A stretch of DNA of 36,056 bases from a virus, in IMG/VR virus record IMGVR_UViG_3300009705_004322, positions 1-36,056 of that record. One strand, written 5' to 3'. Position numbers and translations under genes: made by a program. Below, in pieces: positions 750-34,829 of this stretch. The number at the start of each line of letters is the position of its first letter. Within the stretch, counting starts at the first letter, position 1. Under the pieces are notes generated by a model. It was not told the DNA's origin. It did no database searches and saw only the letters and a program-made list of their open reading frames with translations.

Positions 750-1637
750 TTAAAATTTAAGTTCACGGGGTAGCGTTGCTAGGCAAGAGATCTGCCCAGA
801 CGTTAGATCGTACCCTTTACCTCTAAGGTAAGCGTAGATAGATTTTTTTTGTTGTTCGTCATTATGCATCTCTTCAAAGATAATGAAGGGAGGGAGGGGT
901 TCTTTTATAGCTCTTAGCAAATCTATATCGTACCCCTCGGTATCAAAATGAAGCCAATCTAATTGGTCAGTACTAGATATGTAATCAGCAATCAAATCGT
1001 TAATTGAACAAGAAGATCTTATGGAACTTTTTATTTCCTCTTTTTCCGAACCTCTTATAACTCTTTCTACAACAGAATTAGTATAACCTTTTCCTGCTTC
1101 GAAGAATTCTATGTCTTGCCCTTCTGTGGTAATCAACTGATTGACCAGTTTAACATTAGGGTACTTTTGGTAATTGTGAACAAGCTTAGCGAATTGAGGT
1201 TTAGAAGCTTCCGCTAAACAAGCGTCGGTCAAATTTTCTTGTACAGCGGGAGCCCATTCTCCAAACTCTCCATCGTGGCTTCCTACAACGATACCCTTGG
1301 GTCTTTTACCTTCGAAAATAAGACGCTTGCAATAAAGATAAAAAGCCTGATAAAGGGCGTCCCCGTCTTCTATGGTGTTCCATTTCTTTTGAGCTACCAT
1401 ATTCCCATTACTATCGGTTAAAACCGTATCGTACATTTCCGTATCGGGAAAGGATGCCCAAGAGTTATCACCAATCGAACAGCCCCATTGCTTTCTGGTG
1501 CCACGGTACATAGCGACTTCTAGGGGAAGCGCGTAATGCCGGGAGATCTCGCCGGTGGTCACTTTAATCTGCATATCGTCACTTTCGTAACTACCCAAGT
1601 AGTCGATTGTTATAACTTTTTTAGCTGTGTTTGTCAT
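750..1637 (-). CDS. FkbM-family SAM-dependent methyltransferase
   Basis: This 295-residue protein carries the two hallmarks of FkbM methyltransferases. One is a SAM-binding loop, GIVVGSHDGEFGEW, near residues 115-128. The other is an acidic motif near 228-243 (LDWLHFDTEGYDIDLL), matching the family 'D-x-E-G-x-E/D-x-x-x-L' signature, preceded by the usual 'SINDLI' stretch. FkbM enzymes usually O-methylate sugars or glycoconjugates. The first ~110 residues are extra and of unknown fold. Its ATG overlaps the stop of the upstream glycosyltransferase by 4 bases (ATGA), implying translational coupling. In this setting it probably methylates a glycan built by the neighbours; that is inference. Confidence 0.85.
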   Translation of the reverse strand: MTNTAKKVITIDYLGSYESDDMQIKVTTGEISRHYALPLEVAMYRGTRKQWGCSIGDNSWASFPDTEMYDTVLTDSNGNMVAQKKWNTIEDGDALYQAFYLYCKRLIFEGKRPKGIVVGSHDGEFGEWAPAVQENLTDACLAEASKPQFAKLVHNYQKYPNVKLVNQLITTEGQDIEFFEAGKGYTNSVVERVIRGSEKEEIKSSIRSSCSINDLIADYISSTDQLDWLHFDTEGYDIDLLRAIKEPLPPFIIFEEMHNDEQQKKSIYAYLRGKGYDLTSGQISCLATLPRELKF

Positions 1638-2524
1638 GTTTCGTTGAAATATTGTTGGAGCAAATTCGTGTTTTTCTCATTTAATTTGCCGTGCAAACAC
1701 TTAATGTCGTCAAAATTTGATTTGCTTGGTATGCGGGTAAATTCATCGTAGTAGAACTGATCTTGGGGCCGACCGCGGTCGGCGTGGTTGCCTGCGCTCT
1801 GATGATCGTGGTTTTTAATTAATTTAAAAAAATCCGTTAAATCTTCGAGATGGGTCGGCATATCAATATGAATAGCGCCTAGGTCGTTATAATATTGGTT
1901 GCCCCATAATAAGACATTAGCAATTGATTCGTCATGCAGTGGGGCATATTTTTTATAATTATTTATTAGGTGTTTGTCGCTACAGGCAAGGAACCATTCC
2001 TTTAGAAAAACTTGGCACCTTTTGTTAAAAAGAAGCACGCAACTTTGGACATACCTAGTATTGTGCCTTAAAGCGCTATCGTAGCCTAAATATTCAAATA
2101 AATTTTTCTCGTGGTTTTTGTCCACAGCCATATCATTAAAAATGATAAAGTCCCATGAATGTAAGGCAACTAAAGGGTAGTTTTCTAAACTGTCAAATTT
2201 ATTAAATATAGAATCGATGTTTTTAAGAGGAATAATGTCAGAATCCAGATAACAAAAACTAGCATCACCGAAGAGCTGTAACACAAATTGACAAATGGCA
2301 GGTTTCATAAACATATACGATATATTTTTTCCGTATTCTTCGGCGCTCTCTGCTCCTGTAGTTGTATCGTAGGCAACAGGGATTACCTTAGCAAAAGGGG
2401 ATGTATAATCAAAATCTAATGTAACATATATAATTTTATACTGAGAGTGTTCTTCTAAAAAAGAAAACAATTTCTCAGCGTCTTTGACGTATTTCTTATC
2501 CGAATAAACAACAAAATAATTCAT
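1634..2524 (-). CDS. Nucleotide-diphospho-sugar transferase (GT-A fold, GT8-like)
   Basis: This is a 296-residue protein. Residues 88-100 (ASFCYLDSDIIPL) contain the Asp-x-Asp metal and sugar-nucleotide binding motif (D94, D96) in the hydrophobic context typical of GT-A transferases. A block after it (YVQSCVLLFNKRCQVFLKEW) matches the segment where GT8-like enzymes place the acceptor site, and 'HDESIANVLLW' follows as in that group. No signal peptide or membrane segment is seen. It overlaps the heptosyltransferase-like gene upstream and the FkbM gene downstream by 4 bases each. The sugar specificity is not readable. Confidence 0.75.
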   Translation of the reverse strand: MNYFVVYSDKKYVKDAEKLFSFLEEHSQYKIIYVTLDFDYTSPFAKVIPVAYDTTTGAESAEEYGKNISYMFMKPAICQFVLQLFGDASFCYLDSDIIPLKNIDSIFNKFDSLENYPLVALHSWDFIIFNDMAVDKNHEKNLFEYLGYDSALRHNTRYVQSCVLLFNKRCQVFLKEWFLACSDKHLINNYKKYAPLHDESIANVLLWGNQYYNDLGAIHIDMPTHLEDLTDFFKLIKNHDHQSAGNHADRGRPQDQFYYDEFTRIPSKSNFDDIKCLHGKLNEKNTNLLQQYFNET

Positions 2525-3414
2525 ATCTCGTTTAAATTTAAAATTAGATCAATTTTTTCGATCACCATCTCGGGCGTTATTTGTCTAGTGCATTCAAAAT
2601 CTTTCTTTTCAGGGCACCAGTACCAATCGTCTGCCACCATGTCGTGATTGTCCCAACATGCATGGCAAACGTTTTTGTTTTGTATGATATAAGGGTTTTT
2701 AAAATGATATCTTTCGCTGATTGGCCCCACCACCATCACCACGGGCTTCTTGAGCGCCCATGCAAGCCATGATAAGCCTCCGCTCAGCCCCATAAAAAAC
2801 AATGACTTATCGATATAGCTCGCTACTGTACGAAGAGGGAGTCCGGTTTTGTTTTTTGACCCTGACGGGATGGGGGTATAGGCAGGAATGTCTCCAGAAG
2901 GTATTCCGGCCCCAAATTGCGTATAATGATCTAAACTAACGACATCGATTTTTCGTTGTTTTAAATGAGAGATAACCTTATTCCATCCGCCTTTGAGGGT
3001 CCACAATCGTTGTTGCATCGTAGAAAGAGAAGCCATAGATACTGTGGGGCGTTTCAGTTTAATATTTTTAGACTTAAACCGAAGAGTAGGTTTAGCTTCA
3101 TGTATTTCTTCAAACCCTAAAATTTCAGAAGCCATTTGAATTAACCCTCCTTCTTTAATGTCTTTTACTTCGTTTGTAAGATAAGAAGGCCTTTGCCAGC
3201 CCTGATAGTCTATAACAAAAGATTGATCGTAGGTATCATGAATCAACGGGCTACTCTTTGAGTATATGTTAATATTCGTAGCTCCAAAAATATCATTAAA
3301 TTTGCAAAAAACATCAACTTGGTGCTCACTGGCCTTTTGGTATCTTTCTACTTGCCCCATCCATCCAATAGAATCACCAAGGCCATTTGCTTTGAAAAAG
3401 ATTTTAGTTTTCAT
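2521..3414 (-). CDS. GT9-type heptosyltransferase-like protein with four-cysteine 'iron finger' (copy 1)
   Basis: This is a 297-residue GT-B protein. The N-terminus (KANGLGDSIGWMGQVERY) is the GT9-type first loop with the G-x-G-D turn. Residues 206-229 (LFFMGLSGGLSWLAWALKKPVVMV) match the nucleotide-sugar domain motif of GT9 enzymes. The C-terminal part has Cys250, Cys253, Cys267 and Cys275 (C-x2-C-x13-C-x7-C). That arrangement is characteristic of bacterial autotransporter heptosyltransferases such as TibC, where four cysteines hold an iron. It is a clear paralogue of the protein at 3784-4668. It overlaps the next gene by 4 bases. Protein heptosylation is inferred from the family; the acceptor is unknown. 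Confidence 0.8.
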   Translation of the reverse strand: MKTKIFFKANGLGDSIGWMGQVERYQKASEHQVDVFCKFNDIFGATNINIYSKSSPLIHDTYDQSFVIDYQGWQRPSYLTNEVKDIKEGGLIQMASEILGFEEIHEAKPTLRFKSKNIKLKRPTVSMASLSTMQQRLWTLKGGWNKVISHLKQRKIDVVSLDHYTQFGAGIPSGDIPAYTPIPSGSKNKTGLPLRTVASYIDKSLFFMGLSGGLSWLAWALKKPVVMVVGPISERYHFKNPYIIQNKNVCHACWDNHDMVADDWYWCPEKKDFECTRQITPEMVIEKIDLILNLNEI

Positions 3415-3787
3415 AATGTTTTTCCTCTATAAGCATAGAGCCTGTGATCACATTGATTTCTTTTTTGATGCGGGCTCTTCTATCGTTGATTTTGTAAACA
3501 GAGCGAGCTAATTTAATAAAATCTTTATCGAACTCATCTTTAAATTCTTTTTCTCTAATTTTATGTTCAATAGACCATAGTTTTAAATTAACATTACTCA
3601 ACTCCCTATAGAAGTCCTCAGGAAAGGTTTTATCGTTGGTGGAAAGGATTTTTGTGCTTACTGTTTTTAAGAGATCGTATCCTTTTTGGACATTAGTTTT
3701 TTGCGATTCATCTTCCATAAAATGAAGCTTCAGCTCAAGGATGGATAGTTTATCTAAGATTTCTCCGTTTGATACTTCTATTTTCAT
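3404..3787 (-). CDS. DUF6165-like small protein of glycan clusters
   Basis: This 127-residue protein opens with KIEVSNGEILDKLSILELK, the signature start of the DUF6165 family (I-E-V-S-x-G-E-x-x-D-K-L-s-I-L-E-x-K). It is predicted to be largely helical and highly charged, with no membrane segment. Members of this family often sit beside GT9-like genes; here the gene lies exactly between the two four-cysteine transferases, overlapping the first by 11 bases and the second by 4. A role as partner of the transferases is only inference. Confidence 0.7.
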   Translation of the reverse strand: MKIEVSNGEILDKLSILELKLHFMEDESQKTNVQKGYDLLKTVSTKILSTNDKTFPEDFYRELSNVNLKLWSIEHKIREKEFKDEFDKDFIKLARSVYKINDRRARIKKEINVITGSMLIEEKHYEN

Positions 3788-4668
3788 ATCAATCTATCTA
3801 TTTGTTTTTTAACCATTTCAAAAGTGATTTCTTTGCTGCATTCAAAATGACGAGCCGTGCCCTTATGGCGAGGGCACCACATCCAGTCACCTTTATCAAA
3901 AGTATGAGCAGGATCGTTCCAGCAGGAATTGCAAACACTTTCGTTGATAACCCTATATGGGGTATAAAATTCTGCTTTGGGGGCCGAAAATCCAGATATA
4001 AGCACAACGGGTTTGTTAAGTGCCCACGCTAACCATGAAAGTCCCGACCCGAGGCCAATGAAAAAATCACAAAAATATAAATCGTTAATTCGATCAGTTA
4101 TGGAAATTTCGGGATTTTTGTTAAACCGATTCTTTCTAATAGAATTAGCTGGCGTATCGTTCCAGTGATCTGCTACTCCAAATCTCGCATGCTGATCTAT
4201 GCAAACAGCATCATACCCTAGGCTTTGTAGGTAATCTACTGTTTGGTTCCACCCTGTTGGATTATTCCAGTATTTACATTGGGCGGTGCTTTGCGTAGCA
4301 ATGCAAACATAAGGTTTATCAAAATTATTTTTTAAATTAGGAGGAACAGTAATGGGAGGCCTAATCTCCGCATAAGGCAGCTTTAACACATCGGTCGCAT
4401 GACATATATTAGGTTTAATAAAGTCCGCAGAATCATTAACCCCAATGTTGTAGATGTGGGTGTACCCCTGCTTCTGCGCGCTGGTTAATGGCTCATCAAG
4501 AAAACGCAAAGATGGATAGCCGTCCCGAAAAAGACCTCTCCATTTAGGGGTAACGTAGACATCTGTATCTAGGCCGTGTAACAACTGAAACTCTCTTGCG
4601 TGAGGGATCCAGCTAATGTTGTCGCCTAGTGATTCAGAGTTAAGCTGAATTAGAACCTGAGCGCTCAC
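3784..4668 (-). CDS. GT9-type heptosyltransferase-like protein with four-cysteine 'iron finger' (copy 2)
   Basis: This 294-residue paralogue of the protein at 2521-3414 shares its layout: an N-terminal loop with G-D-N-I-S-W, a central PYVCIATQSTAQCKYW strand that resembles the start of the second domain, and FFIGLGSGLSWLAWALNKPVVLIS (residues 202-225). Four cysteines follow: Cys246, Cys249, Cys265 and Cys277 (C-x2-C-x15-C-x11-C). This spacing is close to what I recall for the iron site of TibC-type autotransporter heptosyltransferases. The two copies have clearly diverged, so they may act on different acceptors or at successive steps. The start ATG follows a 5-base gap after the next upstream gene. 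Confidence 0.8.
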   Translation of the reverse strand: MSAQVLIQLNSESLGDNISWIPHAREFQLLHGLDTDVYVTPKWRGLFRDGYPSLRFLDEPLTSAQKQGYTHIYNIGVNDSADFIKPNICHATDVLKLPYAEIRPPITVPPNLKNNFDKPYVCIATQSTAQCKYWNNPTGWNQTVDYLQSLGYDAVCIDQHARFGVADHWNDTPANSIRKNRFNKNPEISITDRINDLYFCDFFIGLGSGLSWLAWALNKPVVLISGFSAPKAEFYTPYRVINESVCNSCWNDPAHTFDKGDWMWCPRHKGTARHFECSKEITFEMVKKQIDRLI

Positions 4669-8791: not shown

Positions 8792-10701
8792 GTTAAATTA
8801 AATTGAAGCTTATCTCTACCGTGTCGGGTATAGTTTAAAGCTCGTTTTGTTTCTAGCCAAGGTAGAAAAGCCATATCAAATAGCCCTTTTTCATCCGCCT
8901 TTCCTTCAAAGTAAAAACAATCGTCCATTTCATTGTGGAACTCGCAGATCTTATAAATATCGGAGCTTTCATCGACCAGCGAAAAGTGCTTTCTCATCGT
9001 AAAAAAATATATATCATGGTCTGGGTAGAGCTTTTTAAGCGAGTGGGTGACGCTAAGGCTCATGAAGACATCCTCTTCGTGCTCTGGCATCACATAAGCA
9101 ATTCTTTTATTTGGGCGATTAAAGTCCACCTCTTCTTTAAGGGATTTTTTAAAAAGTTCGGCGTTTTCTTTTTTAGCCGTTTGAGAAAAGAAGTTTAAAA
9201 TCTCCTCTCTTTTTTTCCCTTTAATGAATTCGTTCATCCAATACTTATAGCCGTTATCGCTTTCGTCAATATCCATCATAAGCATGTTTTTATAAACACC
9301 TAATAGCCATTTTGAATCATTAGGCTCTTCAGGGGGGTCGTAGTCTGGGTTTCTTTTCTCTATTTTGGTTGTGCTTAGATCGATTGAGCTCCAGTCTATT
9401 AAGGGTAGCTCATCAAACAGGTTTTCGAAAAACTTACCAACCACTTCAATCGAATAGTTATCAATAACAAACTTTCTGGCTTCCTTGCCTTTTGTCTCTC
9501 GGTCTACAAGATCCATTTTGTAAACCTTAGAAAGCTGACTAGAAATAGAAACCGCAGAAGTAGAAGCTTTAATAAATTGGGTTCCCGGCTCGCGATATTC
9601 AGCCCACTCTAAAGGAAACCCTCCGCTATCAGGGGTGCAGCAATCCTCTCCGCAAGAATAATTTGTAACCAAAGTGATAAGCTCCGTTAGCTTTGCTTCT
9701 TGTATGGGAATTTCTTGACCGCCACTGGTAAATGGGTGACAGTAAACATCCATCAAATTGTAAACTTCATTTAACTGCTGCTCTGAAACCCCTACTTTAA
9801 TATTCGTAGTATGTACCGACCCTTTAGTGTTGCATGCTGGGCAATCTTGGGCTTGCCCGTTGTGGCTTCGTATAAAATATTGGTGACATTTTCCGCAAAT
9901 ATACGTAGTGACGATATCATCATTGTTCAATTTCTTTTCTTTAATAAGGGTGGGTATGTCCCAACCTTCGGCCCAGTGAGTATGTAGTAAAAGCTTAGGG
10001 TTGCACTCTGGGTGGGCTAATTTAAATGTTTTAAAACCCTCTAACAGATTCGGTACGCTTTTTCTCAATTGGTTTCTAAACACAAACCCGATGACAAAGT
10101 TTTTAGTAAGGTTGTGGCCTTCGCGAATACGCTCTCGTTCTTTTTTATCTATTTTAAAAAAATTCTTAGTGTCAAGGGAGCCTCTAACGGTTTTAATATG
10201 ATTATGCCCAACTCTCTCTAGTTCTCGTTGAGCAAATGAAGCCCATACAAAATAATGTTTAATTTTAGGTGCCGCTTGTATAGCCTCAGGCAAAAGGGGT
10301 ACGCTGTCTAGTGTGGTATGTATCATGCAATGCATCTTGTTCCACCATGAGCGAGAAGTAAATCCGTTGAAAGCCCAAATATCTTCTACCCCTAAATAAA
10401 TGTCAGGCTTTTCTTCTTCAATAATTTCATTAATAAGCTCGTGTCCGTACCCAGCAGTGCGTTGCCTATTAGGATCTTTGCCTATCTCTGTTAATACTTT
10501 TGAACTAGAAGGTAATGTGCCAACGGCTTTCCACGGCATGTTAGAAACTTGGTCTTTATGTTTGGCATTAGAGAGCTCTACAATTTCATATTTTCCTGTT
10601 TGATGCAGGTATTTTAAAAGATTTTTTTTATGTTTGCCAAACCCTGTGAAGGCTTTGCAGTGATTACTGTGAATAAGGATTTTCTTTTTTCTTTCGGCCA
10701 T
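8788..10701 (-). CDS. GT4 glycosyltransferase with zinc-ribbon insertion and GT9-like C-terminal half-domain, 637 aa
   Basis: Residues 6-180 form the first GT-B domain (KILIHSNHCKAFTGFGKHKK). The second carries HPFTSGGQEIPIQEAKL at 322-338, the E-x-x-x-x-E region that binds the donor. Between them, Cys269, Cys272, Cys287 and Cys290 (C-x2-C-x14-C-x2-C) make a zinc ribbon inserted in the nucleotide-binding domain, which is unusual. After residue ~535 a new Rossmann start (KRIAYVMPEHEEDVFMSLSV) matches the N-terminal half of GT9 enzymes, continued by the next gene. Two glycosyl-transfer steps could be served by this pair. A terminator and promoter precede ATG 10701. Confidence 0.8.
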   Translation of the reverse strand: MAERKKKILIHSNHCKAFTGFGKHKKNLLKYLHQTGKYEIVELSNAKHKDQVSNMPWKAVGTLPSSSKVLTEIGKDPNRQRTAGYGHELINEIIEEEKPDIYLGVEDIWAFNGFTSRSWWNKMHCMIHTTLDSVPLLPEAIQAAPKIKHYFVWASFAQRELERVGHNHIKTVRGSLDTKNFFKIDKKERERIREGHNLTKNFVIGFVFRNQLRKSVPNLLEGFKTFKLAHPECNPKLLLHTHWAEGWDIPTLIKEKKLNNDDIVTTYICGKCHQYFIRSHNGQAQDCPACNTKGSVHTTNIKVGVSEQQLNEVYNLMDVYCHPFTSGGQEIPIQEAKLTELITLVTNYSCGEDCCTPDSGGFPLEWAEYREPGTQFIKASTSAVSISSQLSKVYKMDLVDRETKGKEARKFVIDNYSIEVVGKFFENLFDELPLIDWSSIDLSTTKIEKRNPDYDPPEEPNDSKWLLGVYKNMLMMDIDESDNGYKYWMNEFIKGKKREEILNFFSQTAKKENAELFKKSLKEEVDFNRPNKRIAYVMPEHEEDVFMSLSVTHSLKKLYPDHDIYFFTMRKHFSLVDESSDIYKICEFHNEMDDCFYFEGKADEKGLFDMAFLPWLETKRALNYTRHGRDKLQFNLT

Positions 10702-10712
10702 AAAAGTCAGGG

Positions 10713-10740
10713 ATTATAAAAAAACGCACCCACAATTCAA
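10713..10740 (-). promoter_or_regulatory. Sigma70-like promoter embedded in a terminator
   Basis: On the minus strand TTGAAT (10740-10735), a 16-base spacer and TATAAT (10718-10713) lie 11 bases before ATG 10701. The -35 box is the loop of the terminator hairpin and the spacer contains its 3' stem and T-run. Confidence 0.65.
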
Positions 10741-10752
10741 CTTGTGGGTGCG
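10718..10752 (-). terminator. Rho-independent terminator after the FtsZ-like gene
   Basis: The minus strand reads CGCACCCACAA (10752-10742), loop GTTGAA, TTGTGGGTGCG (10735-10725), then seven T residues (10724-10718). An 11-bp GC-rich stem with a T-run is a strong intrinsic terminator. It is 22 bases past the stop of the FtsZ-like gene. Confidence 0.9.
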
Positions 10753-10773
10753 CCTAAATAAAACAAAACGAAA

Positions 10774-12024
10774 CTAGTTCGCGTAGTCAAAAAGTTGCTC
10801 GGGAGCTTTTATGCCTCCTATGATAGTATAGACTACCAGCCCCTTTTTTGAGGTATGGTAAATACCGCGATGAACCGTAGAATCTGACCCTAAAAGGCGA
10901 CTAAGCTGATCAAAGCCGTGCTCCAAGCTTTCTTGTGCGGTGTCGTCAAGCGTTTCACGATCCCCAATTACAACACACCCAGCTACATTGCCTGTAGATA
11001 CTTCAATGTTAGCTAGGATATTTTTCTTAAGGTTATCGCGAACTGCGTGGCTGATATCAGTTTCATCTATATTTCCATCCCCTCTTAAAACTGGAACTGC
11101 CCCAAAAGATATAATACCAGACGAAAAGATAGTATCAAGATCAGCCTTGTCGAAGGCTGTGTATTGAGAATCTTGGCAAGCTATTTTGTTAAACAAATGA
11201 AACAAAGAACAAATACTTGTATTGGCTGTTCCCCAAAACTGATTGACTGATAGTCTAGGGTAGATTTGCTTGATGCGCTCGTTATCTAAAATAATAAGAG
11301 GTGAAAGAGTACCTGCTTCAGACTGCTGTATCAGGGTATCCGCTGTCTCTTTGGCGTTCTGCTGTACCCGTGAGCCTTCTGCTCTAGTGGGTAAAGCTAC
11401 TACAGCACCTACGCGAGCGTCCGCCTCTGAAGCCTCTATACCATAAGCTTGGCAAAGGTCGTGGACTATCTCTACTACCACAGGACCACCTCCGGCACCC
11501 GTACCTCCACCCGCCCCAATACATACCAAGGCTCTATCAAACCCACCTTTAAAGGTACGCTTTAAAAAATCAAGGATATCTTCGCGATTCTCTCGAAAAA
11601 TACTTTCGGCCACCTTCCTATCTTTACCAGCTCCGTCACCTCCCACAAGAAGCTTGTTTTCCCGAGGGACTTTAATAGACTTTAGATCTTGAGGGGCAGT
11701 ATTAATAACCGCTACGCGCCTATAGCCCAACTTCCAAAATGTCTCTGCTAATCGAGACCCCCCTTGTCCCACACCTACAACGGCAAATTTATAAGCCGAA
11801 TCAAATTTATCCTCTATCTTAACCTCTGGAGGTGCTTCTGAGGGCAATAGGATATCAGGGATATCTACCCCTAGGTCATCATCTGTAAAGGCCTCAGCCT
11901 CAAAACTAGGCTCTTCTGTGAGCTCCTCTGCAACTTCTTCTTGAGGGGCACCTTCGGTCTCGTTTTCTGCGCTGTTCATATCTTCTTTATTTTGTTCTTC
12001 CATATATTCCATCAAATTAGGCAT
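10774..12024 (-). CDS. FtsZ/tubulin-superfamily GTPase, 416 aa
   Basis: Residues 79-110 (KFAVVGVGQGGSRLAETFWK and on) are the FtsZ/tubulin first nucleotide loop. Residues 172-178 (GGGTGAG) are the tubulin signature for phosphate binding. Near 291-301, FDKADLDTIFSS matches the T7 synergy loop with Asp residues (D292, D295, D297) that complete the GTPase site in polymers. All elements for GTP-dependent polymerisation appear present. An acidic, probably disordered extension of about 75 residues precedes the core. Length is near FtsZ or TubZ plus this extension. Phage relatives (PhuZ, TubZ) form filaments that position DNA; the same role here is inference. A GTGTAAA-type motif precedes ATG 12024 and a strong terminator follows. 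Confidence 0.9.
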   Translation of the reverse strand: MPNLMEYMEEQNKEDMNSAENETEGAPQEEVAEELTEEPSFEAEAFTDDDLGVDIPDILLPSEAPPEVKIEDKFDSAYKFAVVGVGQGGSRLAETFWKLGYRRVAVINTAPQDLKSIKVPRENKLLVGGDGAGKDRKVAESIFRENREDILDFLKRTFKGGFDRALVCIGAGGGTGAGGGPVVVEIVHDLCQAYGIEASEADARVGAVVALPTRAEGSRVQQNAKETADTLIQQSEAGTLSPLIILDNERIKQIYPRLSVNQFWGTANTSICSLFHLFNKIACQDSQYTAFDKADLDTIFSSGIISFGAVPVLRGDGNIDETDISHAVRDNLKKNILANIEVSTGNVAGCVVIGDRETLDDTAQESLEHGFDQLSRLLGSDSTVHRGIYHTSKKGLVVYTIIGGIKAPEQLFDYAN

Positions 12025-12042
12025 TATAATTTACACTTAAAA
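12025..12042 (-). promoter_or_regulatory. GTGTAAA-type upstream motif (FtsZ-like gene)
   Basis: The minus strand reads TTTTAAGTGTAAATTATA immediately before ATG 12024, spanning the SSB stop TAA. The same core (TTTAAGTGTAAAyTATA) precedes the ribonucleotide reductase gene, also across a TAA stop. No Shine-Dalgarno is seen between it and the ATG. It could be a phage-specific promoter or a translation signal. Confidence 0.4.
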
Positions 12043-12624
12043 TGGAGCATCGTCGTCTTCTTCTACAGGAGCTTTTGTGGGCTTAGGTGTGGCGGGTTTT
12101 TTTTGGGACGGGCGATCACCTCCTGCCGTAGTGTCGGCGCTGGAAAACTCACGGTTTTGAAACAGAACATCAAAATATTTATAGATCAATCTCTTAAGAA
12201 CCTCTACGTCGCCGGGCTCCATTGGCAATCTAAAAGCTTGATTCCCGTTTCGTGTTACCGAAAAACCAAAGGCTGGAACCACAAAAGAATCATCCCCATC
12301 TTTAGTTTTAACTGTGCGCTTCTTGTCCCACGGAGCAAGCTTAATAATGGTTTGGTTATCGTTAAAAGAATGAAAGGCATTCCATGAATAACGCCCCTTA
12401 AACGCTGACAGAATTTCGCCCAACTCAAATTCGTTTAGCTTAAAGCTGATATTCTTATCGGGATCTTCTCTGTTCTGGACAAACGAGCCGGTCTTCGTTT
12501 TATCGTTCCAGCTATGTTGCTGGATGGCATTTACATAAAAAGTAACGTCTTTTTTGGTGGAAATTTGAAAACTAAAAGCGTTGCCGGTCTTCTTCGCGTT
12601 GGGCTTATAAATAGCTACATTCAT
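12037..12624 (-). CDS. ssb: Single-stranded DNA-binding protein, 195 aa
   Basis: The last residues, EEDDDAPF, are the acidic-aromatic tail by which bacterial SSBs recruit partners (compare DDDIPF). A Lys/Pro/Thr-rich linker precedes it (residues 160-187). The N-terminal ~150 residues are not a standard OB fold by eye; the segment KNISFKLNEFELGEILSAFK and then YSWNAFHSFND resembles the PC4/whirly-like ssDNA-binding proteins of some phages. It would coat ssDNA at the fork beside DnaB, primase and DnaE from this window. It has its own promoter and an upstream terminator. Confidence 0.75.
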   Translation of the reverse strand: MNVAIYKPNAKKTGNAFSFQISTKKDVTFYVNAIQQHSWNDKTKTGSFVQNREDPDKNISFKLNEFELGEILSAFKGRYSWNAFHSFNDNQTIIKLAPWDKKRTVKTKDGDDSFVVPAFGFSVTRNGNQAFRLPMEPGDVEVLKRLIYKYFDVLFQNREFSSADTTAGGDRPSQKKPATPKPTKAPVEEDDDAPF

Positions 12625-12632
12625 TGTGTGAG

Positions 12633-12660
12633 ATTATAGTATAAAAAAGAGCTTATTCAA
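12633..12660 (-). promoter_or_regulatory. Sigma70-like promoter of ssb
   Basis: On the minus strand TTGAAT (12660-12655), 16 bases, TATAAT (12638-12633), then only 8 bases to ATG 12624. Transcription from the usual point would give an essentially leaderless message. It follows directly on the terminator at 12662-12685. Confidence 0.7.
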
Positions 12661-12661
12661 C

Positions 12662-12685
12662 AAAAAAACCACACTAAAAGTGTGG
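12662..12685 (-). terminator. Rho-independent terminator after the collagen-like gene
   Basis: The minus strand reads CCACACT (12685-12679), loop TTT, AGTGTGG (12675-12669) and seven T residues (12668-12662). It lies between the stop at 12720 and the ssb promoter. Confidence 0.85.
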
Positions 12686-12719
12686 CTAAAATGAAGCAAA
12701 ATATGTATACAAAAATATA

Positions 12720-13049
12720 CTATGGGCCAGTAGGGCCACCTACGTTCCCTGAAGGGCCAGTAGCGTCAGACGAAGGGCCAGTAGCGCCAGCTTCACCTGC
12801 AGATCCAGCCTCATGAAAATCGGCTACATCTTTTTTGATATTTTCCAAGGTAGCCTCGTCGGCCTCCTCCACAATGTCAGCTGCACGCGCTACGCAGGCG
12901 TCGCGAATAACGTTTAGGCACTCGCCCAAGGTAACTCGATTGATTAGCAAGTTTGCAAAATCAGTCTTCAATTCCCCGACCGTGCCTGTTCCTACGTTGC
13001 CACTAGAACCCGCAGGCCCAGTCGATTCAGTACTTAAGTTCGAACTCAT
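12720..13049 (-). CDS. Gly-Pro-rich (collagen-like-ended) small protein, 109 aa
   Basis: Both ends are rich in Gly-x-x triplets: residues 10-24 (TGPAGSSGNVGTGTV) and 81-109, ending ATGPSGNVGGPTGP. Between them is a folded-looking helical core of about 55 residues (LKTDFANLLINRVTLGECLN and on). Short collagen-like stretches are common in phage structural and fibre-associated proteins. At the DNA level GGGCCAGTAG recurs three times in the 3' part, a sign of repeat expansion. It has its own promoter and terminator and so is a one-gene transcript. Function unknown; a virion protein is the best guess. Confidence 0.6.
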   Translation of the reverse strand: MSSNLSTESTGPAGSSGNVGTGTVGELKTDFANLLINRVTLGECLNVIRDACVARAADIVEEADEATLENIKKDVADFHEAGSAGEAGATGPSSDATGPSGNVGGPTGP

Positions 13050-13055
13050 ATAAGA

Positions 13056-13083
13056 ATAGTATATAACAAGAGAAAAATGTCAA
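13056..13083 (-). promoter_or_regulatory. Promoter of the collagen-like gene
   Basis: On the minus strand a perfect TTGACA (13083-13078), 16 bases and TACTAT (13061-13056; an overlapping TATACT lies two bases upstream) stand 6 bases before ATG 13049. This geometry predicts a leaderless or near-leaderless message. It lies just past the stop at 13091. Confidence 0.65.
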
Positions 13084-13090
13084 GTAAAAA

Positions 13091-13336
13091 TTACTGAACG
13101 TAATACCAAATAGTACCAACCGTAGCGGCAGAAACAGCGCCTGTCACCAAGAAGGGATTGTTACCGAAGTTAACCTGTCCGGGCACACAAGCTACACCAT
13201 TGGCTGTAAAGTTAGCACTAGCGGCAACAATGTAAATATTACGCTTAGTTATCACACCAAAACCATCGGTATTCGACCCCGGATCAGCTATGCTAGTGGC
13301 GCTGTTGACTTGACATGGTGTGTCGTTAAGCGCCAT
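13091..13336 (-). CDS. Small beta-rich protein, possible virion component, 81 aa
   Basis: This protein is rich in Ala, Thr, Val, Asn and Gly with few charges (NIYIVAASANFTANGVACVP near residues 33-52), typical of small beta-barrel decoration or tail proteins. I recognise no family. A good Shine-Dalgarno (AAGGAAGG, 6 bases upstream of ATG 13336) supports the start, and it follows the holin-like gene by 2 bases. Structural role is inference from composition. Confidence 0.55.
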   Translation of the reverse strand: MALNDTPCQVNSATSIADPGSNTDGFGVITKRNIYIVAASANFTANGVACVPGQVNFGNNPFLVTGAVSAATVGTIWYYVQ

Positions 13337-13338
13337 AA

Positions 13339-13536
13339 TTAACCTTCCTTAGGTGGCCCCACAGCCTTTTTGACCTCCGATGTAACGCCTTGGCGAAGAA
13401 AAACAAGCATTAGCGCTGCAAAAACAGCCTGTATTGTTACCGTCAGGTCAACTTCCCCTGTCAAATATGCCCCGAGAGCCGTCAATACCGCCGCTCCCGC
13501 CGTGAAATAAGTCTTTTTGCCTTTTAGAGCTTCCAT
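13339..13536 (-). CDS. Holin-like small membrane protein, 65 aa
   Basis: Two hydrophobic helices (residues ~10-27, YFTAGAAVLTALGAYLTG, and ~32-48, TVTIQAVFAALMLVFLR) are joined by a short acidic turn, with a lysine-rich N-terminus (KGKK) and a charged C-terminus (SEVKKAVGPPKEG). This is the form of class II-type phage holins, which make pores in the inner membrane at lysis, but no endolysin is beside it. Other two-span phage membrane proteins look the same. TATAAT lies 10 bases before ATG 13536. Confidence 0.6.
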   Translation of the reverse strand: MEALKGKKTYFTAGAAVLTALGAYLTGEVDLTVTIQAVFAALMLVFLRQGVTSEVKKAVGPPKEG

Positions 13537-13560
13537 AGTTAGTAATATTATACACTCTAA
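13537..13560 (-). promoter_or_regulatory. GTGTA/TATAAT upstream element of the holin-like gene
   Basis: The minus strand reads TTTAGAGTGTATAATATTACTAACT before ATG 13536, with TATAAT at 13552-13547, 10 bases from the ATG. A clear -35 box at the right distance is lacking. It shares GTGTAnAnnTTACT with the element before the gene at 28305-29123. Confidence 0.45.
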
Positions 13561-13561
13561 A

Positions 13562-15967
13562 TCAAAAAATTACATCGATTTTGTCTTGCTTTTTATTATA
13601 GCGAACAGAATAGTCTTTTATATTAGGGTTTTTAACAAAGCTTAAAGAGAGTTGGTCTGTAATCTTATTTTGAACCGCTCTCTTGATTAGGCGCGCGCCA
13701 AAAGAAGAATCTCCTATATTGTCAACAATGAAATCTTCAATAGTATTTTCAAAATCTAAGGCTATTCCGTTTTTAATAGCGTTCTGTGTTAAGAACTGGA
13801 GTTCGTGGCGCACAATTGATTTTAGGTTTGAGCTGGAGAGCTCCTTAAAGAAAACAATATCATCAAATCTATTGATCAACTCTAAGGGTAAAACTTTTTT
13901 AAGTTCTTTGCGGGCATCAACCTCACGGCTATCTGCTGTAGAACCACCAAACCCAAGAGTCTCTTTTTTCATAAGAGCTTTAGAGCCTATATTACCTGTG
14001 ATAATGATTATACTGTTACGAAAATTTGCTTCTCTGCCTTGCGAATCACGAAGATGGCCTTCATCGAGTATTTGAAGCAAAATTTGATGTACTTTAGGGT
14101 GGGCTTTTTCTATCTCATCGAATAAGATTACTGAATTTGGGTTTTGGGAAATCTTTTCTACCAATAGCCCTCCTTCTTCAAAACCTACGTACCCCGGACT
14201 GGAGCCTATTAACTTTGAAACGCTATTACTTTCAGAAAACTCCGACATGTCGAAGTGAATAAAGCTATTTTTATTTTTAAAAAATAATTTAGCCAGACAT
14301 TTTGTGGCGTATGTTTTACCTACTCCTGTTGGGCCAAGAAACATTAAGCTGCCAATAGGTCTGGCCGTGTCTCTTAGGCCGCTTTTGTGTCGCAAAAGGC
14401 ACCGAGAGATAGAGCTAATAGCCTCCCCTTGGCCTACTACTAGCTTTTTCAATTGTTTTTCTAAATTGATATATTTCTTAGATACTGATTGGCCAAAATC
14501 GTGAGCCGGAATACCTGTCTTGCGAGAAAGTATCTCAAAAAAGTCTCGCTTGGAGATCTTATATCTTTTTTTAGATAATTGGTTGCTCCATTTGGCGACT
14601 TTTTGCTTTATCCCTTCAAGGATATGGTCCTCGTATCCTTTTTCTGTATTCCCAGACGAAAGGTCAGAGACGAATTTTGCTTCAAGTTGCCGAAGGCAAT
14701 CTGGTTTTTTAATTTTTTTAATTTTAACGTGGCTACATGTAAGGTCGAGTAAGTCAATAGCTTTGTCTGGAAAATGACTTTGAGGTAAAAATTCTTCGCT
14801 ATAGTTCACTATGTCTTGTAGCATATCAGAACTAATAGAAACATGGTGGAACTCTTCGTAAATTTGCTTTTTTTGGTTTAGTATCTTCAGCGTCTCCTCT
14901 TTTGTTGGCTCTTCAATAACAACTTGGTCAAAGCGGCGATGCAGGGCCTTGTCTTTGAACAGCTTCTTTCGGTACTCAGCGTAAGTTGTGGCTCCAATGA
15001 CCGTAATTTCTCCGCTGGATAGCGCAGGCTTTAGGATGTTTGCTGCATCCAGCGCCCCCTCTGCGTCTCCGGCTCCTGATAGAGTATGTATTTCGTCAAT
15101 AAATAAAATTATACTTGGGTCTTTGGCGTCTTCAATGATTTTATTTAAGCGATCTTCGAATTCGCCTCTATACTTGGTACCCGCCACTATATTATTTAAA
15201 TCAAGGCTAAAAATAACTTTATTCTGCAAGAATAATGGAGCATCCCCTTGAATGATACGCTGCACTAACCCTTCCACAATAGATGTTTTTCCTACCCCCG
15301 CGTCGCCAAGCAAAATAACACTGTTCTTTTTACGACGACTTAGAATGTCTTCTACCTTTGCCGTTTCTTTTTCTCTGCCAAAAACGGGATCTACATTCCC
15401 TTGTAGGGCTTTTTCGGTCAAATTTTCAGCATATTTATTTAAAAACTTAAAGTCTTTTCCGCCTTCCATAAAAGGCGCCCACCCTTTTTCTGTGGGAGGC
15501 TCAACTTTCGGTTCGGCATCAGAAAGGTAAGTCACGATATCCGTAAAAAGAATCGTTAGGTCGAACCTAAATAAGCTATGAATTTTTTTAGGCCACTTCT
15601 CAAAATTATCTAAAATGGCTAAAAAAACGTGATCTACGCTGACCCATCCGTGCTGAAACTCGGAAGCAATTTCTGTGGATTGTTTGAGGATAGACACAAC
15701 AAACGGTGAGAGCTTAATTTCAGAAGGCGTAGCTTCGGCGCTGGGAAGATCTGATAGGATTTCGTCGTATAAAACACGCCTTAAATCGTCCAAGTCTAAC
15801 CCTAGGTCAGAGGCAAGACTAAGAGACTTGGCTTGTTTAAGCTCAAAAAAAGCAGCAAACAAATGGGGAAGCAAGATCTTCTCGTGGTTAAGGGCTAAAG
15901 CTATACGCTTAGTTGCTTGAAGCAGCTTCTGCGAGCGGGGGGTAAAGTTAATTTCTCCTATTGTCAT
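13562..15967 (-). CDS. Clp/Hsp100 AAA+ unfoldase (ClpA/ClpC-like), 801 aa
   Basis: Residues 1-150 form a Clp N-domain. The first AAA+ module has Walker A GDAGVGKT (221-228), pore loop near GTKYRGEFEDRL (263-274) and Walker B FIDEIH (289-294). The second has GPTGVGKT (545-552), pore loop SPGYVGFEEGG (590-600) and Walker B ILFDEIEKAHP (614-624), then GNIGS. LGFGG at 671-675 corresponds to the (L/I)GF loop with which ClpA/ClpC/ClpX dock ClpP. The long coiled-coil M-domain of ClpB is absent. It may therefore deliver proteins to the host ClpP. It overlaps the DnaE C-terminal gene by 4 bases, an unusual partner. Confidence 0.92.
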   Translation of the reverse strand: MTIGEINFTPRSQKLLQATKRIALALNHEKILLPHLFAAFFELKQAKSLSLASDLGLDLDDLRRVLYDEILSDLPSAEATPSEIKLSPFVVSILKQSTEIASEFQHGWVSVDHVFLAILDNFEKWPKKIHSLFRFDLTILFTDIVTYLSDAEPKVEPPTEKGWAPFMEGGKDFKFLNKYAENLTEKALQGNVDPVFGREKETAKVEDILSRRKKNSVILLGDAGVGKTSIVEGLVQRIIQGDAPLFLQNKVIFSLDLNNIVAGTKYRGEFEDRLNKIIEDAKDPSIILFIDEIHTLSGAGDAEGALDAANILKPALSSGEITVIGATTYAEYRKKLFKDKALHRRFDQVVIEEPTKEETLKILNQKKQIYEEFHHVSISSDMLQDIVNYSEEFLPQSHFPDKAIDLLDLTCSHVKIKKIKKPDCLRQLEAKFVSDLSSGNTEKGYEDHILEGIKQKVAKWSNQLSKKRYKISKRDFFEILSRKTGIPAHDFGQSVSKKYINLEKQLKKLVVGQGEAISSISRCLLRHKSGLRDTARPIGSLMFLGPTGVGKTYATKCLAKLFFKNKNSFIHFDMSEFSESNSVSKLIGSSPGYVGFEEGGLLVEKISQNPNSVILFDEIEKAHPKVHQILLQILDEGHLRDSQGREANFRNSIIIITGNIGSKALMKKETLGFGGSTADSREVDARKELKKVLPLELINRFDDIVFFKELSSSNLKSIVRHELQFLTQNAIKNGIALDFENTIEDFIVDNIGDSSFGARLIKRAVQNKITDQLSLSFVKNPNIKDYSVRYNKKQDKIDVIF

Positions 15968-17391
15968 TTTACGTCAGATAATTTCATGTAAATACGTCCA
16001 TCTAAAATATTCATATCGTCTACAAAAACGATATCCTCGGATTTCTTACCTACTATTGTGATAATATTGTCTTTTTCAGGCAAACCTTTTTCTTCTAAAT
16101 ACTTTTCTAGCTTAGGGTCAAAAAACATACAGTCAATGCGCCCTAACTCATCTGCTATTGTGAGACGAATATAGCGATTATTGTTACGACTTACCAATCT
16201 GCGACTACAGTCTTTCACCACTCCTACAAACTTTACACCTTGCTTTGTTTCTGCGGAACATACTTCGTAGCAATTCATAAGATTTCCTGCTTCGTTTTTG
16301 AACACATCTCTAAGCGTATGAGTGTATGCATACCCTAATAGTTGGTTTTCAAAGTACCAGTTAGCAAATTTTTCGAAGCTTTTATTCTTGTCGTATATGC
16401 TTTTATATGGGCGGTATTTTTTAAGGAAAGTTTCTGTACGGCTTTCTTTCATGATGGGTTTGTTGTCGTCTCCAACCGATTTGTTCTGAATCACCTCTGT
16501 TCCCACTATATTTAAAACATCATAGTTGTGTTTGGGGCCAAGAGCTATAAAGTTTCTTTTTTCTCGGTCTGTTAAAATATTAAATGCTTGGGCTTCTAAA
16601 ACCATGCGGCTACGGCTGTTGCCAAAAGAGCTGAGAGCTCCCGCTTGTATAAGAGAGGAAAGAACCCCGATATTAATCTTTGCATCTTTTGCGGCCAAGA
16701 ACACGTCAAACTTATTCGAAATCTCAGATTCTCTAAAGTCAACTATAGACTGTAGGCTTTTTTCACTTACACCCTTGATACAATTAAGCCCATAGCGAAT
16801 GTCCTTACCTTCAACAGTAAAGTCCATGCTAGACTTTGCTAAATCAGGGGGAAGTAACTTCATATCAAAGTGGTTTAATTCTCTAGCTATCTTATTGACT
16901 TGATCAAAAGGATCTGCTTCATGTTTTGCCATTTTAAGCAAAGCAATATAAAAATGCTGAGGGTGGTTGAACTTTAAATAAGCTGTCCATGCTGTAAGGA
17001 TGGCATAGCTAATAGAATGAGATTTGTTAAAGGAATAATTCGCGCTATCTTCGGCAACTTGCCAAAGGATGTCAGCAATCTCTTCTCCTTGGTGCCCTGT
17101 CCATGCGTTCGTTAAGCGATTTGCTTCAACTTTCTTTGCAATTTTCTCTCGCCACTCCGGCATCTGGTCTATTTTTTTCTTGCCGATTATTCTTCTTAAC
17201 TGTTCCGCTTCATCTAAAGTAAACCCCACCTCTACGGCCATTTTCATCAACTGCTCTTGGTAGAGGGGGATACCTCCCGTATAATCTAAGATATCAGCAA
17301 ACTGAGGGTGGACCAACGCCGAGTCTCCTGTGCGAATATAATCAGCGTACTGATCTTTAAACTCAAGCGCTCCCGGTCTAGCTATTGCGAT
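15964..17391 (-). CDS. DnaE C-terminal part (fingers, beta-binding, OB region), in -1 frame to palm
   Basis: This frame carries the second half of a DNA polymerase III alpha subunit. It begins with IAIARPGALEFKDQYADYIR (conserved RPG motif) directly out of frame with the palm gene, then GGIPLYQEQLMKMA, QLRRIIGKKK, YSFNKSHSISYAILTAWTAY and LPPDLAKSSMDF. An OB-fold-like end reads VKFVGVVKDC and LTIADELGRIDCMF. A -1 shift at 17391 would join it to the palm without loss. If translated separately, a TTG at 17316 with AGGAG 8 bases before it (17325-17329) is the only good start, which loses the RPG segment. It is either a shifted reading, a split gene, or a sequencing error. Confidence 0.8.
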   Translation of the reverse strand: MAIARPGALEFKDQYADYIRTGDSALVHPQFADILDYTGGIPLYQEQLMKMAVEVGFTLDEAEQLRRIIGKKKIDQMPEWREKIAKKVEANRLTNAWTGHQGEEIADILWQVAEDSANYSFNKSHSISYAILTAWTAYLKFNHPQHFYIALLKMAKHEADPFDQVNKIARELNHFDMKLLPPDLAKSSMDFTVEGKDIRYGLNCIKGVSEKSLQSIVDFRESEISNKFDVFLAAKDAKINIGVLSSLIQAGALSSFGNSRSRMVLEAQAFNILTDREKRNFIALGPKHNYDVLNIVGTEVIQNKSVGDDNKPIMKESRTETFLKKYRPYKSIYDKNKSFEKFANWYFENQLLGYAYTHTLRDVFKNEAGNLMNCYEVCSAETKQGVKFVGVVKDCSRRLVSRNNNRYIRLTIADELGRIDCMFFDPKLEKYLEEKGLPEKDNIITIVGKKSEDIVFVDDMNILDGRIYMKLSDVK

Positions 17392-18533
17392 GAGGCAGAA
17401 ACCTCCTCTAAGCTACGGGGCTTAATTTTTTTACATACCCCGAAGTTAGTATCAGCTTCAATTTGGAAAAGACCTTGAGGGCATTCTAATTGTTGAAAAT
17501 GTTTATACAAAGTCTTATCGTTCAAATCAATACTGTCTAAGTCCACGCCAGAGAGGCGTGAGGCATCCTTCAAGACAGTTAAGGTTTTTAACCCCAGTAT
17601 GTCAAACTTAACAGTGAGCTCCGAAATCCAGTTCATGTCATAGCATGACGCAAGCTCTCCTTCTTTTGTCTTTTGAAGAGGGCAGATATCTGTTAGTGGC
17701 TGGTGAGAAATAGCAATCCCAGAAGCATGAACCCCTGTATTTTTAATAAGTCTTTCCAGTTTGAGTGCGATTATATATACTTTAGGGTTATCTTCGCACC
17801 ACTCGTCAAACATCTCGCTTTCTTGGCGCGCCTCAGGCAAAGGAGAAACCTTACCAAACTTTACAGGGATCAAATCGCTTAACTCGTTAACCTCTTGCTC
17901 TGTGTAAAGCCCTACAATTTTACCGGTCTCTTTGATGCATAGTTTTCCACTCAAGCTAACTAAGTTTAAGATACGACATGTACGAGACGGATGCTTGCGT
18001 TTAATGTATTCGATGACTTCACTGCGACGGTCATATGCAATGTCATTATCCACATCAGCTAACAACGAACCGTCTAGATAAGTTATACCGTCCTTTTCGA
18101 TCTTACGAGCGCGACTTTTAGAGACAAATCTCTCAAAGAAAAGATTGTACTTAATTGGATCTACCTTTGTAACCTTAAGCAAATAAAGGATAAGAGAACC
18201 TGCTGCCGAGCCACGGCCCGGACCGGTGGGGATCTCATTCTCATGGCAATAATTTAGAATATCCCAGTTAAGCAATATATAGTCAATGAATCCAAGCTCA
18301 CTCAATATCTTAAGCTCTTCTCCTGCGCGGTCATAATACTGATCTTTGTTAGGGTATTTATTGATACCCATCTCCTTAATGCTTTCCCAGCATAACTTCT
18401 TAAGAAATTTAAGGTTGTCTATCCCCTCATCAAGATCCAATTTTTTATAAAACTTCTTTTCAATTTTAATCTTAGGCAGTAGCACTCCAGCAGGCGCGCA
18501 GTCATCATAAGTTGTAAATTTATCTGCAAACAT
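17382..18533 (-). CDS. dnaE: DNA polymerase III alpha subunit, palm (catalytic) part
   Basis: I choose ATG 18533 (383 residues) because GGAGGTGG lies 7 bases before it and it forms TAATG with the exonuclease stop; the earlier ATG 18551 has no such site. The start corresponds to the region just after the PHP domain of a normal DnaE. IPTGPGRGSAAGSLILYLLK is the signature of the palm, the catalytic acids are in LLADVDNDI (D-x-D) and in VKFDILGLKTL, and NTGVHASGIAIS is conserved. The PHP domain is missing here but present at 20399-21142. It stops at TAG 17382 in the middle of the 'EEVSAS-IAIARPG' region. Confidence 0.92.
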   Translation of the reverse strand: MFADKFTTYDDCAPAGVLLPKIKIEKKFYKKLDLDEGIDNLKFLKKLCWESIKEMGINKYPNKDQYYDRAGEELKILSELGFIDYILLNWDILNYCHENEIPTGPGRGSAAGSLILYLLKVTKVDPIKYNLFFERFVSKSRARKIEKDGITYLDGSLLADVDNDIAYDRRSEVIEYIKRKHPSRTCRILNLVSLSGKLCIKETGKIVGLYTEQEVNELSDLIPVKFGKVSPLPEARQESEMFDEWCEDNPKVYIIALKLERLIKNTGVHASGIAISHQPLTDICPLQKTKEGELASCYDMNWISELTVKFDILGLKTLTVLKDASRLSGVDLDSIDLNDKTLYKHFQQLECPQGLFQIEADTNFGVCKKIKPRSLEEVSASSQ

Positions 18534-19174
18534 TATATTTCCACCTCCCATATCAACTTGTTAAAAATTTTAAATGTCATATCTATATCATAACCAGCAT
18601 CATGTAGTTTGTTTTCATCAAATCTTATGTCGTAATCTTTAAGCAGTTGTTTTTGGTTGGTCTTCAGCCCTCTTTTACGAAACTCGTTAAGCTTATATTG
18701 CCAGTTAATAAGAGATTCGTCCTTACCTTTTTTAATCTTTTCTTTTGCTGCTTTGGCTATGCAGTTAGTATCAAGGATTCTGTCGATGTATGAGTAGTCG
18801 CTCTGCTTTTTAAGCAACTTCCGATAAATGTTGTGAATGTAGACATCAAACCCCAACAGGTTATGGCCGATGATTAAATAAGACGGGTCATACAGATATG
18901 ATTCAAACTCATCAAGAATTGCCGTTGCGTCTGTTGAGTTTTTTTCATAATGCTTACGATTGAACTGGCAGATTTTAGCGGCTTCTGCGCTTACGTTTAA
19001 ATCGGGCCACCGGATCAACCGGTCAAAGGCCTTTAGAGACTTTTTGCCCTGAAAGGTACCGTACCCTATTTGCCAAGGCTTGTTGTCCGAGTTCAAGAGG
19101 TTGAGGTGGCATGTCTCAAAATCAAAACAAAGGTATTTTTGGTTTTTATTAAACCGTAGGAGGTTATCGTTCAT
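18533..19174 (-). CDS. DEDDh 3'-5' exonuclease (proofreading, DnaQ-like), 213 aa
   Basis: ExoI motif CFDFET (D18, E20), ExoII IGHNLLGFDVY (D110) and ExoIII HDAGYDIDMT (H191, D196) are all present, giving the DEDDh type used in DnaQ/epsilon. It would proofread for the polymerase encoded immediately downstream, with which it shares a TAATG junction. The beta-clamp-binding tail of host epsilon is not obvious. An extra segment between ExoII and ExoIII (residues 120-180) is lysine-rich and may contact DNA or the polymerase. It overlaps the SET-like gene upstream by 11 bases. Confidence 0.9.
   Translation of the reverse strand: MNDNLLRFNKNQKYLCFDFETCHLNLLNSDNKPWQIGYGTFQGKKSLKAFDRLIRWPDLNVSAEAAKICQFNRKHYEKNSTDATAILDEFESYLYDPSYLIIGHNLLGFDVYIHNIYRKLLKKQSDYSYIDRILDTNCIAKAAKEKIKKGKDESLINWQYKLNEFRKRGLKTNQKQLLKDYDIRFDENKLHDAGYDIDMTFKIFNKLIWEVEI
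18541..18548 (-). promoter_or_regulatory. Ribosome binding site deciding the DnaE palm start
   Basis: The minus strand reads GGAGGTGG, 7 bases before ATG 18533, one of the strongest Shine-Dalgarno sites in the window. It lies after the alternative ATG at 18551, so it supports 18533. Confidence 0.7.
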
Positions 19175-25624: not shown

Positions 25625-26026
25625 TTATATTATTTCCTTATGTAGTGAGTCAAAGTCCATATTGCCTTCGTGGATCTCAAGTAACTTAATACTGTTAAGG
25701 TCGCAGAAAGATAATTTTTCTTCATCTCTTTTCAGTTGATGTAAATAATTTATTTTATTACCTTTATGAAAAAACTTATTATACTTCGTGTGCTGTTTTC
25801 CTTGTACCTCTATAGCTATACCTTTAGTAGCATTATAGAAGTCTAATGTAAGGCGCGTACCCACAACGGGAAACTCTTCAAAAACGACATCGCCGTCCCA
25901 AAAGACTTTTAAAAAAACTTTAACTGTAGCTTGAAGCTTGCTTCGGCTCCCTTTTTCCCAGTTAATTAGATAAATAACCGGGCGCTTAATGCGTCGACGA
26001 CTGCCTATGAGGGTTTTAAAAGTCAT
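25625..26026 (-). CDS. Vsr/EDxHD-like endonuclease, 133 aa
   Basis: Residues 48-80 read FEEFPVV, then RLTLDFYNATKGIAIEVQGK and QH: an initial Glu (E51), Asp62, Glu73 and Gln-His (78-79) as in the small phage nucleases related to Vsr and to I-Bth0305I-type homing enzymes. A further region (INYLHQLKRDEEKLSFCDLN) matches the 'D-x-x-K' helix that follows in this family. The protein may make strand breaks for recombination with RecA, encoded immediately upstream, or it may be a free-standing homing endonuclease. It starts 1 base after the RecA stop. Confidence 0.75.
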   Translation of the reverse strand: MTFKTLIGSRRRIKRPVIYLINWEKGSRSKLQATVKVFLKVFWDGDVVFEEFPVVGTRLTLDFYNATKGIAIEVQGKQHTKYNKFFHKGNKINYLHQLKRDEEKLSFCDLNSIKLLEIHEGNMDFDSLHKEII

Positions 26027-31121: not shown

Positions 31122-31138
31122 TATAGTTTACACTTAAA
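31122..31138 (-). promoter_or_regulatory. GTGTAAA-type upstream motif (reductase gene)
   Basis: The minus strand reads TTTAAGTGTAAACTATA, spanning the gmd stop TAA and ending 13 bases before ATG 31108. The leader CTCTGACTTTA that follows resembles the leader CCCTGACTTTT before ATG 10701. The role is unknown. Confidence 0.4.
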
Positions 31139-33150: not shown

Positions 33151-33159
33151 AGTAATTTA

Positions 33160-34131: not shown

Positions 34132-34829
34132 AAAACGTAATTTGCTGCTTGGGCATCACTGTAAAAACCCTGTACGGTCTCTAGAGAGTATTTTTCTAAA
34201 TCTTTATTTTTTAAACTTAGTTTTTTTAGTATGCCAGAAGGAGCTGTAATAATATCACACCCTAGGGAATCTGCCTGATAGATACTATATGTTTCACGGC
34301 AGCTTGCCCACAAAAGCTCTGACACAGGGTTAAGTCGGAGCATCCCCTTACAGTTAGCCATTATAGACGCTGGGTTAACTCCTGTGTCAGCAATACGTCC
34401 GGCAAAAACAGATACTACCGATGGGGTTACAGGGCTTAAACAATCTGACAAATCTTTAACCTGCTTTTCAGTCATAACAGCTGTTACATTGACTTTCACC
34501 CCTTTGTTCCCTAAGCTCTTAATAATGGGACCCGTAAATTCGCCCTTAGTATTAGTTATAGGAATTTTAGCATAAAAATTTTCTGAAACAGAGGATATAA
34601 TTATTGCCTGCCTCTGCATCTCCTCTAGATCGTCCGCTATAACCTCGACAGAAACGTGTTTTTTTGAAGGTATTTTTTTAGCAAGATTGTGGGCGAATTC
34701 CATATAGTCTTTTACGCCCGCTTTTCTCATCAAGCTGGGGTTTGTGGTAAAGCCACTAATTTGATCGAAGTCCTTATGCTGAAGTATTTCCTCGAGGTTT
34801 GCGCCGTCTAAAAATGTTTTAATTTTCAT
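34128..34829 (-). CDS. Transaldolase family (TalC-like), 233 aa
   Basis: FLDGANLEEI and ISGFTTNPSLM (residues 6-34), the Schiff-base Lys88 in YAKIPIT (86-92), VNVTAVMT and VVSVFAGRIADTG are the family blocks in order. The length is that of the short TalC/fructose-6-phosphate aldolase group, also found in cyanophages. It overlaps the kinase start and the isomerase end. In this cluster its likely job is to form sedoheptulose 7-phosphate from fructose 6-phosphate and erythrose 4-phosphate, feeding the next enzyme; that is inference. Confidence 0.9.
   Translation of the reverse strand: MKIKTFLDGANLEEILQHKDFDQISGFTTNPSLMRKAGVKDYMEFAHNLAKKIPSKKHVSVEVIADDLEEMQRQAIIISSVSENFYAKIPITNTKGEFTGPIIKSLGNKGVKVNVTAVMTEKQVKDLSDCLSPVTPSVVSVFAGRIADTGVNPASIMANCKGMLRLNPVSELLWASCRETYSIYQADSLGCDIITAPSGILKKLSLKNKDLEKYSLETVQGFYSDAQAANYVL

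Follow-up and report, generated by a model that had tools for sequence, protein, structure and literature searches.

On the minus strand of the window, the whole 36,056-nucleotide stretch of viral DNA that was analysed (IMG/VR record IMGVR_UViG_3300009705_004322), an intact gene at 10774..12024 encodes a tubulin of the TubZ/FtsZ superfamily of GTPases. By sequence comparison, this protein and its relatives are a third group of phage tubulins, distinct from PhuZ and from the TubRZ partition systems. We lean towards the interpretation that it is a GTP-driven filament former, neither PhuZ nor TubRZ, which would position phage DNA or procapsids and use its N-terminal tail as a cargo adaptor. No description of the family was found in the open-access literature.

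The reading frame comprises 416 aa from an ATG at 12024 and was assigned by ORF call, Pfam, AlphaFold, Foldseek and family alignment. The initial annotation had given the correct coordinates; the gene is, however, read from the minus strand, and the plus-strand reading of 10774-12024 is full of stops. An alternative start is Met16 (ATG at 11977-11979, minus strand). Most relatives begin at the equivalent position, and the ATG is preceded by AAAGAAG, a plausible ribosome-binding site. Therefore, the N-terminal tail may have about 60 rather than 75 residues. Directly upstream, after a gap of 12 nt, lies an SSB-like gene (12037..12624, minus strand) with the acidic end EEDDDAPF. The product is probably a single-stranded DNA-binding protein, and the gene is presumably co-transcribed with the tubulin gene. 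Profile searches gave no Pfam or PHROG match for the SSB-like family, and the window member matched the Whirly profile WHY2 weakly (E 0.2). Members of this family end in an acidic tail with an aromatic tip (DDDAPF, GDIPW), as does bacterial SSB. Just 3' of the tubulin gene, an intrinsic terminator with an 11-bp perfect stem and a T run was located at 10718..10752 (minus strand).

Several other features of the window, all on the minus strand, were recorded. A short protein rich in collagen-like GPTGP/GATGP repeats is encoded at 12720-13049, with the Clp ATPase gene on one side and the SSB-like gene on the other. The DNA polymerase III alpha gene (15964-18551) is split into two ORFs by a single-base frameshift compared with an 862-aa relative that is about 90% identical; the split is either a sequencing error or real. 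A homing-endonuclease-like ORF (25625-26026) adjoins a recombinase gene and is kept in relatives. The nearest isolate relatives of the ribonucleotide reductase (29171-31108) were found at 49-52% in Maribacter phage Panino and an uncultured spring phage. Many genes at 1634-4668 and 31134-35996 resemble glycosyltransferases or nucleotide-sugar enzymes (epimerases, kinases); their number is high for a phage fragment.

The GTPase core was analyzed by profile searches, alignment and structure prediction. Residues 81-255 of the window protein matched Pfam Tubulin (PF00091) with 62.3 bits (cut-off 33; E 9e-17), and residues 285-410 matched TubZ-like_C (PF22453) with 26.1 bits (cut-off 26). Alignment with E. 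coli FtsZ, plasmid TubZ and PhuZ placed the T1 loop GVGQGGS at residues 84-90 (11755..11775, minus strand) and the T4 tubulin signature GGGTGAG at residues 172-178 (11491..11511, minus strand). The T7 catalytic loop FDKADLD occupies residues 291-297 (11134..11154, minus strand), with the acidic stretch DKADLD at 292-297, and D292 and D295 align with both aspartates of the FtsZ T7 loop. The protein hence carries the GGGTGxG signature and the T7-loop catalytic aspartates by which the tubulin superfamily is recognized. The residues G84, G86-G89, G172-G174, G176, G178, D292 and D295 were invariant among 54 diverse sequences, in which the relatives share 42-87% identity with the window protein. Because of this invariance, occurrence of the loop residues by chance is excluded. 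These data confirm the initial annotation, which had described a tubulin-family GTPase with polymerisation residues and with all three loops kept. AlphaFold modelled the core confidently (mean pLDDT 85.5 with the alignment of 54 sequences). A Foldseek search against the PDB returned B. thuringiensis TubZ (2xka) at the top (E 5e-23, TM 0.69), with CetZ and FtsZ next; the single-sequence best PDB match of the window protein was CetZ 3zid.

The family is a large one from uncultured phages and has 114 distinct members among the fetched IMG/VR contigs, which are up to 211 kb long. The sole genome-bin contig among the relatives, L034, may be mis-binned. A tblastn search with the window protein as query gave zero matches in 50,697 phage records. 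With a divergent relative as query, the sole match in the phage records was Bacillus phage G gp138 (24%, E 5e-5). Judged by polymerase and terminase, even the closest isolate phages are distant. A tree that also contained FtsZ, TubZ and PhuZ recovered the family as one clade with 100/100 support, as it did FtsZ and PhuZ, and joined the family to five of the six TubZ sequences at 90/77. When PhuZ was left out, TubZ and FtsZ as sister group were not separated by the AU test with these references (p 0.73). Ranked by hhalign, TubZ came first (3e-41, 322 columns), followed by FtsZ (2e-20, 232 columns) and PhuZ (7e-7, 104 columns). Thus, by profile and fold, plasmid TubZ is the closest known family. 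Recent transfer of a host FtsZ was rejected: the window protein scored 74.8 bits with the NCBIfam FtsZ equivalog TIGR00065, whose cut-off is 295.2, and both groups form separate 100/100 clades, so that a placement inside ordinary FtsZ did not occur. Orthology to PhuZ was likewise rejected, owing to the separate clade and the short extent of profile similarity. The earlier view that the protein is not a PhuZ is therefore upheld.

The acidic N-terminal tail comprises residues 1-76 (11797..12024, minus strand) and is mostly disordered in the AlphaFold models (residues 1-61 in one model, 16-47 in another). Counted on the translation, residues 1-74 contain 25 D/E and 3 K, a net charge of about -22. 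The initial annotation had regarded the ~75-residue acidic extension as unique. It is instead a family trait with one conserved motif: an acidic N-terminal tail was found in about 99% of the 114 relatives, with a median length of 58 aa and a median net charge of -10. Across the family the chain ends 5-33 residues (median 18) past YTxIGG. Since the chain stops this soon past the last strand, the long tail is N-terminal and not C-terminal.

Sequence and length of the tail drift across the family, and a motif shortly before the core is kept. Its family core is P-[DEN]-I-P-[LIM]-P; the window protein has the version PDILLP within DIPDILLP at residues 54-61 (11842..11865, minus strand). P61 and, further on, D72 were invariant in the 54 diverse sequences, and P56, D57 and I58 were found in 46-48 of about 52. 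When the six-frame ORFs of the loci (1.1 million residues) were scanned with P[DEN]I[PLI][LIMV]P, 166 tubulin ORFs and zero other ORFs matched, and no candidate partner protein with the motif was found among the latter. With a deeper alignment, AlphaFold confidence in the motif region was intermediate (mean 65 for residues 51-60, mean 80 for residues 61-70), and the motif may therefore contact the core of its own chain or the adjacent subunit, and not cargo. In the window clade, the N-terminal extension opens with a recurring short peptide (MPNLxEY, MATLHEY, PNTDYNQY; 11980-12024 on the minus strand of the window), which is perhaps a second binding motif.

The gene neighbourhood was compared across 115 loci. 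In 75 loci the tubulin gene is part of the head/packaging cassette (terminase, portal, tubulin, capsid genes), in 24, the window included, of the replication module, and the remaining 16 show other contexts; these counts come from contig fragments and from a locus sample biased by the search seeds. In replication modules the gene either neighbours an SSB-like gene and a glycosyltransferase gene or is flanked by the recombinase and DnaB genes. In the head cassette it directly follows the portal gene, or in one clade directly precedes it, sometimes with one gene between. Portal and tubulin genes overlap by 4 nt in L032 and are 2 nt apart in L193. The terminase (TerL) identity is backed by PHROG and Pfam, six of nine portal members match the PHROG portal model, and the capsid gene matched PF25209 at E 1e-4, slightly under its cut-off. 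On the tree, at least two moves between replication and head modules are needed. A portal-seeded IMG/VR search revealed many phages with the same cassette that lack the tubulin within it. Eight such contigs, all of which may be fragments, contained no tubulin anywhere. Phages whose recovered contig has this cassette but no tubulin are common, so the tubulin gene is not required for head assembly as such; rather, it is an accessory gene that was repeatedly placed with replication or head genes. Over 580 portal relatives were seen in IMG/VR, and many phage contigs (L235-L311) share this terminase-portal-capsid cassette, mostly without the tubulin. Gene neighbourhood shows co-expression at most.

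Polymerisation, the nature of the cargo and the adaptor role of the tail are what we infer here; family, fold, catalytic residues, motif and gene contexts were computed. Filament formation is likely. Monomers would stack head to tail, with D292 and D295 completing the GTP site of the next subunit as in FtsZ and TubZ, and the conservation of the T7 aspartates points to GTP hydrolysis across the filament interface. Since TubR and a long C-terminal tail are both missing, cargo would probably be reached via the acidic N-terminal tail and its PDIPxP motif, which is the obvious candidate for cargo binding. The cargo would most likely be phage-made, namely replicating DNA with its replication proteins, procapsids at the portal, or both, and the filaments may bring genomes and heads together in the infected cell. 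From the two contexts in which the gene recurs, the tubulin would serve DNA replication and the filling of heads. Positioning of DNA by the window tubulin, as initially proposed, is plausible. PhuZ carries capsids to the phage nucleus (PMC7950403), which we use as a working analogy and not as a claim for this family.

Because TubZ is the nearest relative by profile and fold and the window group sits in the replication module, the protein could be a TubZ-type partition motor that prevents dividing cells from losing a plasmid-like or pseudolysogenic phage genome, with an unrelated adaptor in place of TubR. We consider this unlikely. A TubR profile that recovers all of the six plasmid TubRs on which it was trained, and also phage G gp137, which lay outside the training set, detected no TubR-like ORF in these phage loci, several of whose contigs had been retrieved in full. 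The absence of TubR argues against classical DNA partition. In addition, no array of tubC/tubS iterons was found near the gene (window 9800-13600), and most loci place the gene in the head cassette. A TubRZ partition cassette was accordingly rejected. Membership in the same superfamily, the replication-module position in 24 loci and a weak match of the window protein to the PHROG PhuZ model (E 5e-4) would also fit a PhuZ-like spindle with a role in centring a replication compartment or a phage nucleus. This is improbable because the family forms its own clade and resembles PhuZ weakly by profile; it also lacks the acidic C-terminal tail that PhuZ has. Moreover, 16 related contigs gave no match to the phiKZ shell protein, in a single-sequence search that is insensitive and had no positive control.

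Tails of clade I, the window type (..DIPDIPLP), resemble the FtsZ C-terminus (..LDIPAFLR), so that the protein might be a decoy which interferes with host FtsZ and blocks division, its PDIP tail mimicking the C-terminal DIPxF peptide. In clade II, however, the first DIP triplet is not conserved, whereas the following PDIPxP is. FtsZ-peptide mimicry by the tail was rejected, as it is not carried by the whole family. The core is also far from FtsZ, and full catalytic conservation favours an enzyme with filaments of its own. We therefore give the decoy little credence, and the suggestion of the initial annotation that host division is altered found no specific support. Finally, a gene position between portal and head genes and a disordered acidic tail would suit a GTPase that has lost polymerisation and works as a switch during head assembly or packaging. 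Since the T7-loop aspartates, which are needed for hydrolysis across a filament interface, are invariant, such a switch is very improbable. The filament former with a tail adaptor remains our preferred reading. A bolder version, which we put forward only tentatively, is that of a widespread third tubulin class in virion assembly, whose filaments would hook procapsids or portals via an N-terminal PDIPxP peptide and deliver them to replicating DNA, in phages with no known phage nucleus.

Previously described phage tubulins fall into two groups: TubZ, from a plasmid prophage, and PhuZ, from jumbo phages that form a nucleus (PMC7950403). A third clade whose tail is at the opposite end and whose gene is beside the portal gene suggests that phage cytoskeletons are commoner than the phage nucleus. 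Phages without a known "nucleus" may also organise DNA or particles by a cytoskeleton. The family is a direct test case for tubulin-driven capsid traffic without a nucleus, and motif and gene order offer concrete candidate partners.

Compared with known proteins, the best viral fold match was A0A6J5RW92 (BFVD), the "FtsZ" of an uncultured Caudovirales phage, with 26% identity over 410 columns. The FtsZ name is a database annotation, and we know of no characterisation of this protein. Archaeal CetZ (3zid, 4b46) is a high-ranking fold match to the window protein. Bacterial FtsZ shares the tubulin GTPase fold and the T1, T4 and T7 loops and is detected by hhalign; in contrast to FtsZ, the phage family lacks the C-terminal linker and DIPxF peptide, and the window protein stays far below the TIGR00065 cut-off. 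PhuZ of phiKZ-type phages is likewise a phage tubulin in large phages, but it forms its own fully supported clade, shows profile similarity over the 104 columns only and carries its tail at the C-terminus. Bacillus phage G gp138, a putative FtsZ-like protein, is the only isolate-phage protein with tblastn similarity and scores 89 bits with the family HMM, whereas it sits on its own long branch and has no N-terminal tail. Directly upstream of it lies gp137 (L073:5655-7119; E 3.7e-9 against the plasmid TubR profile), and as this TubR-like gene adjoins gp138, the two are probably a TubRZ partition pair. TubZ of Bacillota plasmids (TubZRC; 2xka, 4ei7) is closest, being the best match by profile and by fold, and G-x-G-Q/M-x-G, GAGK/R, GGGTG and the T7 aspartate are common to both. 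Unlike TubZ, the phage family has neither TubR, nor iterons that were seen, nor a long C-terminal tail; it has instead the acidic N-terminal PDIPxP tail, and its gene lies in head or replication modules.
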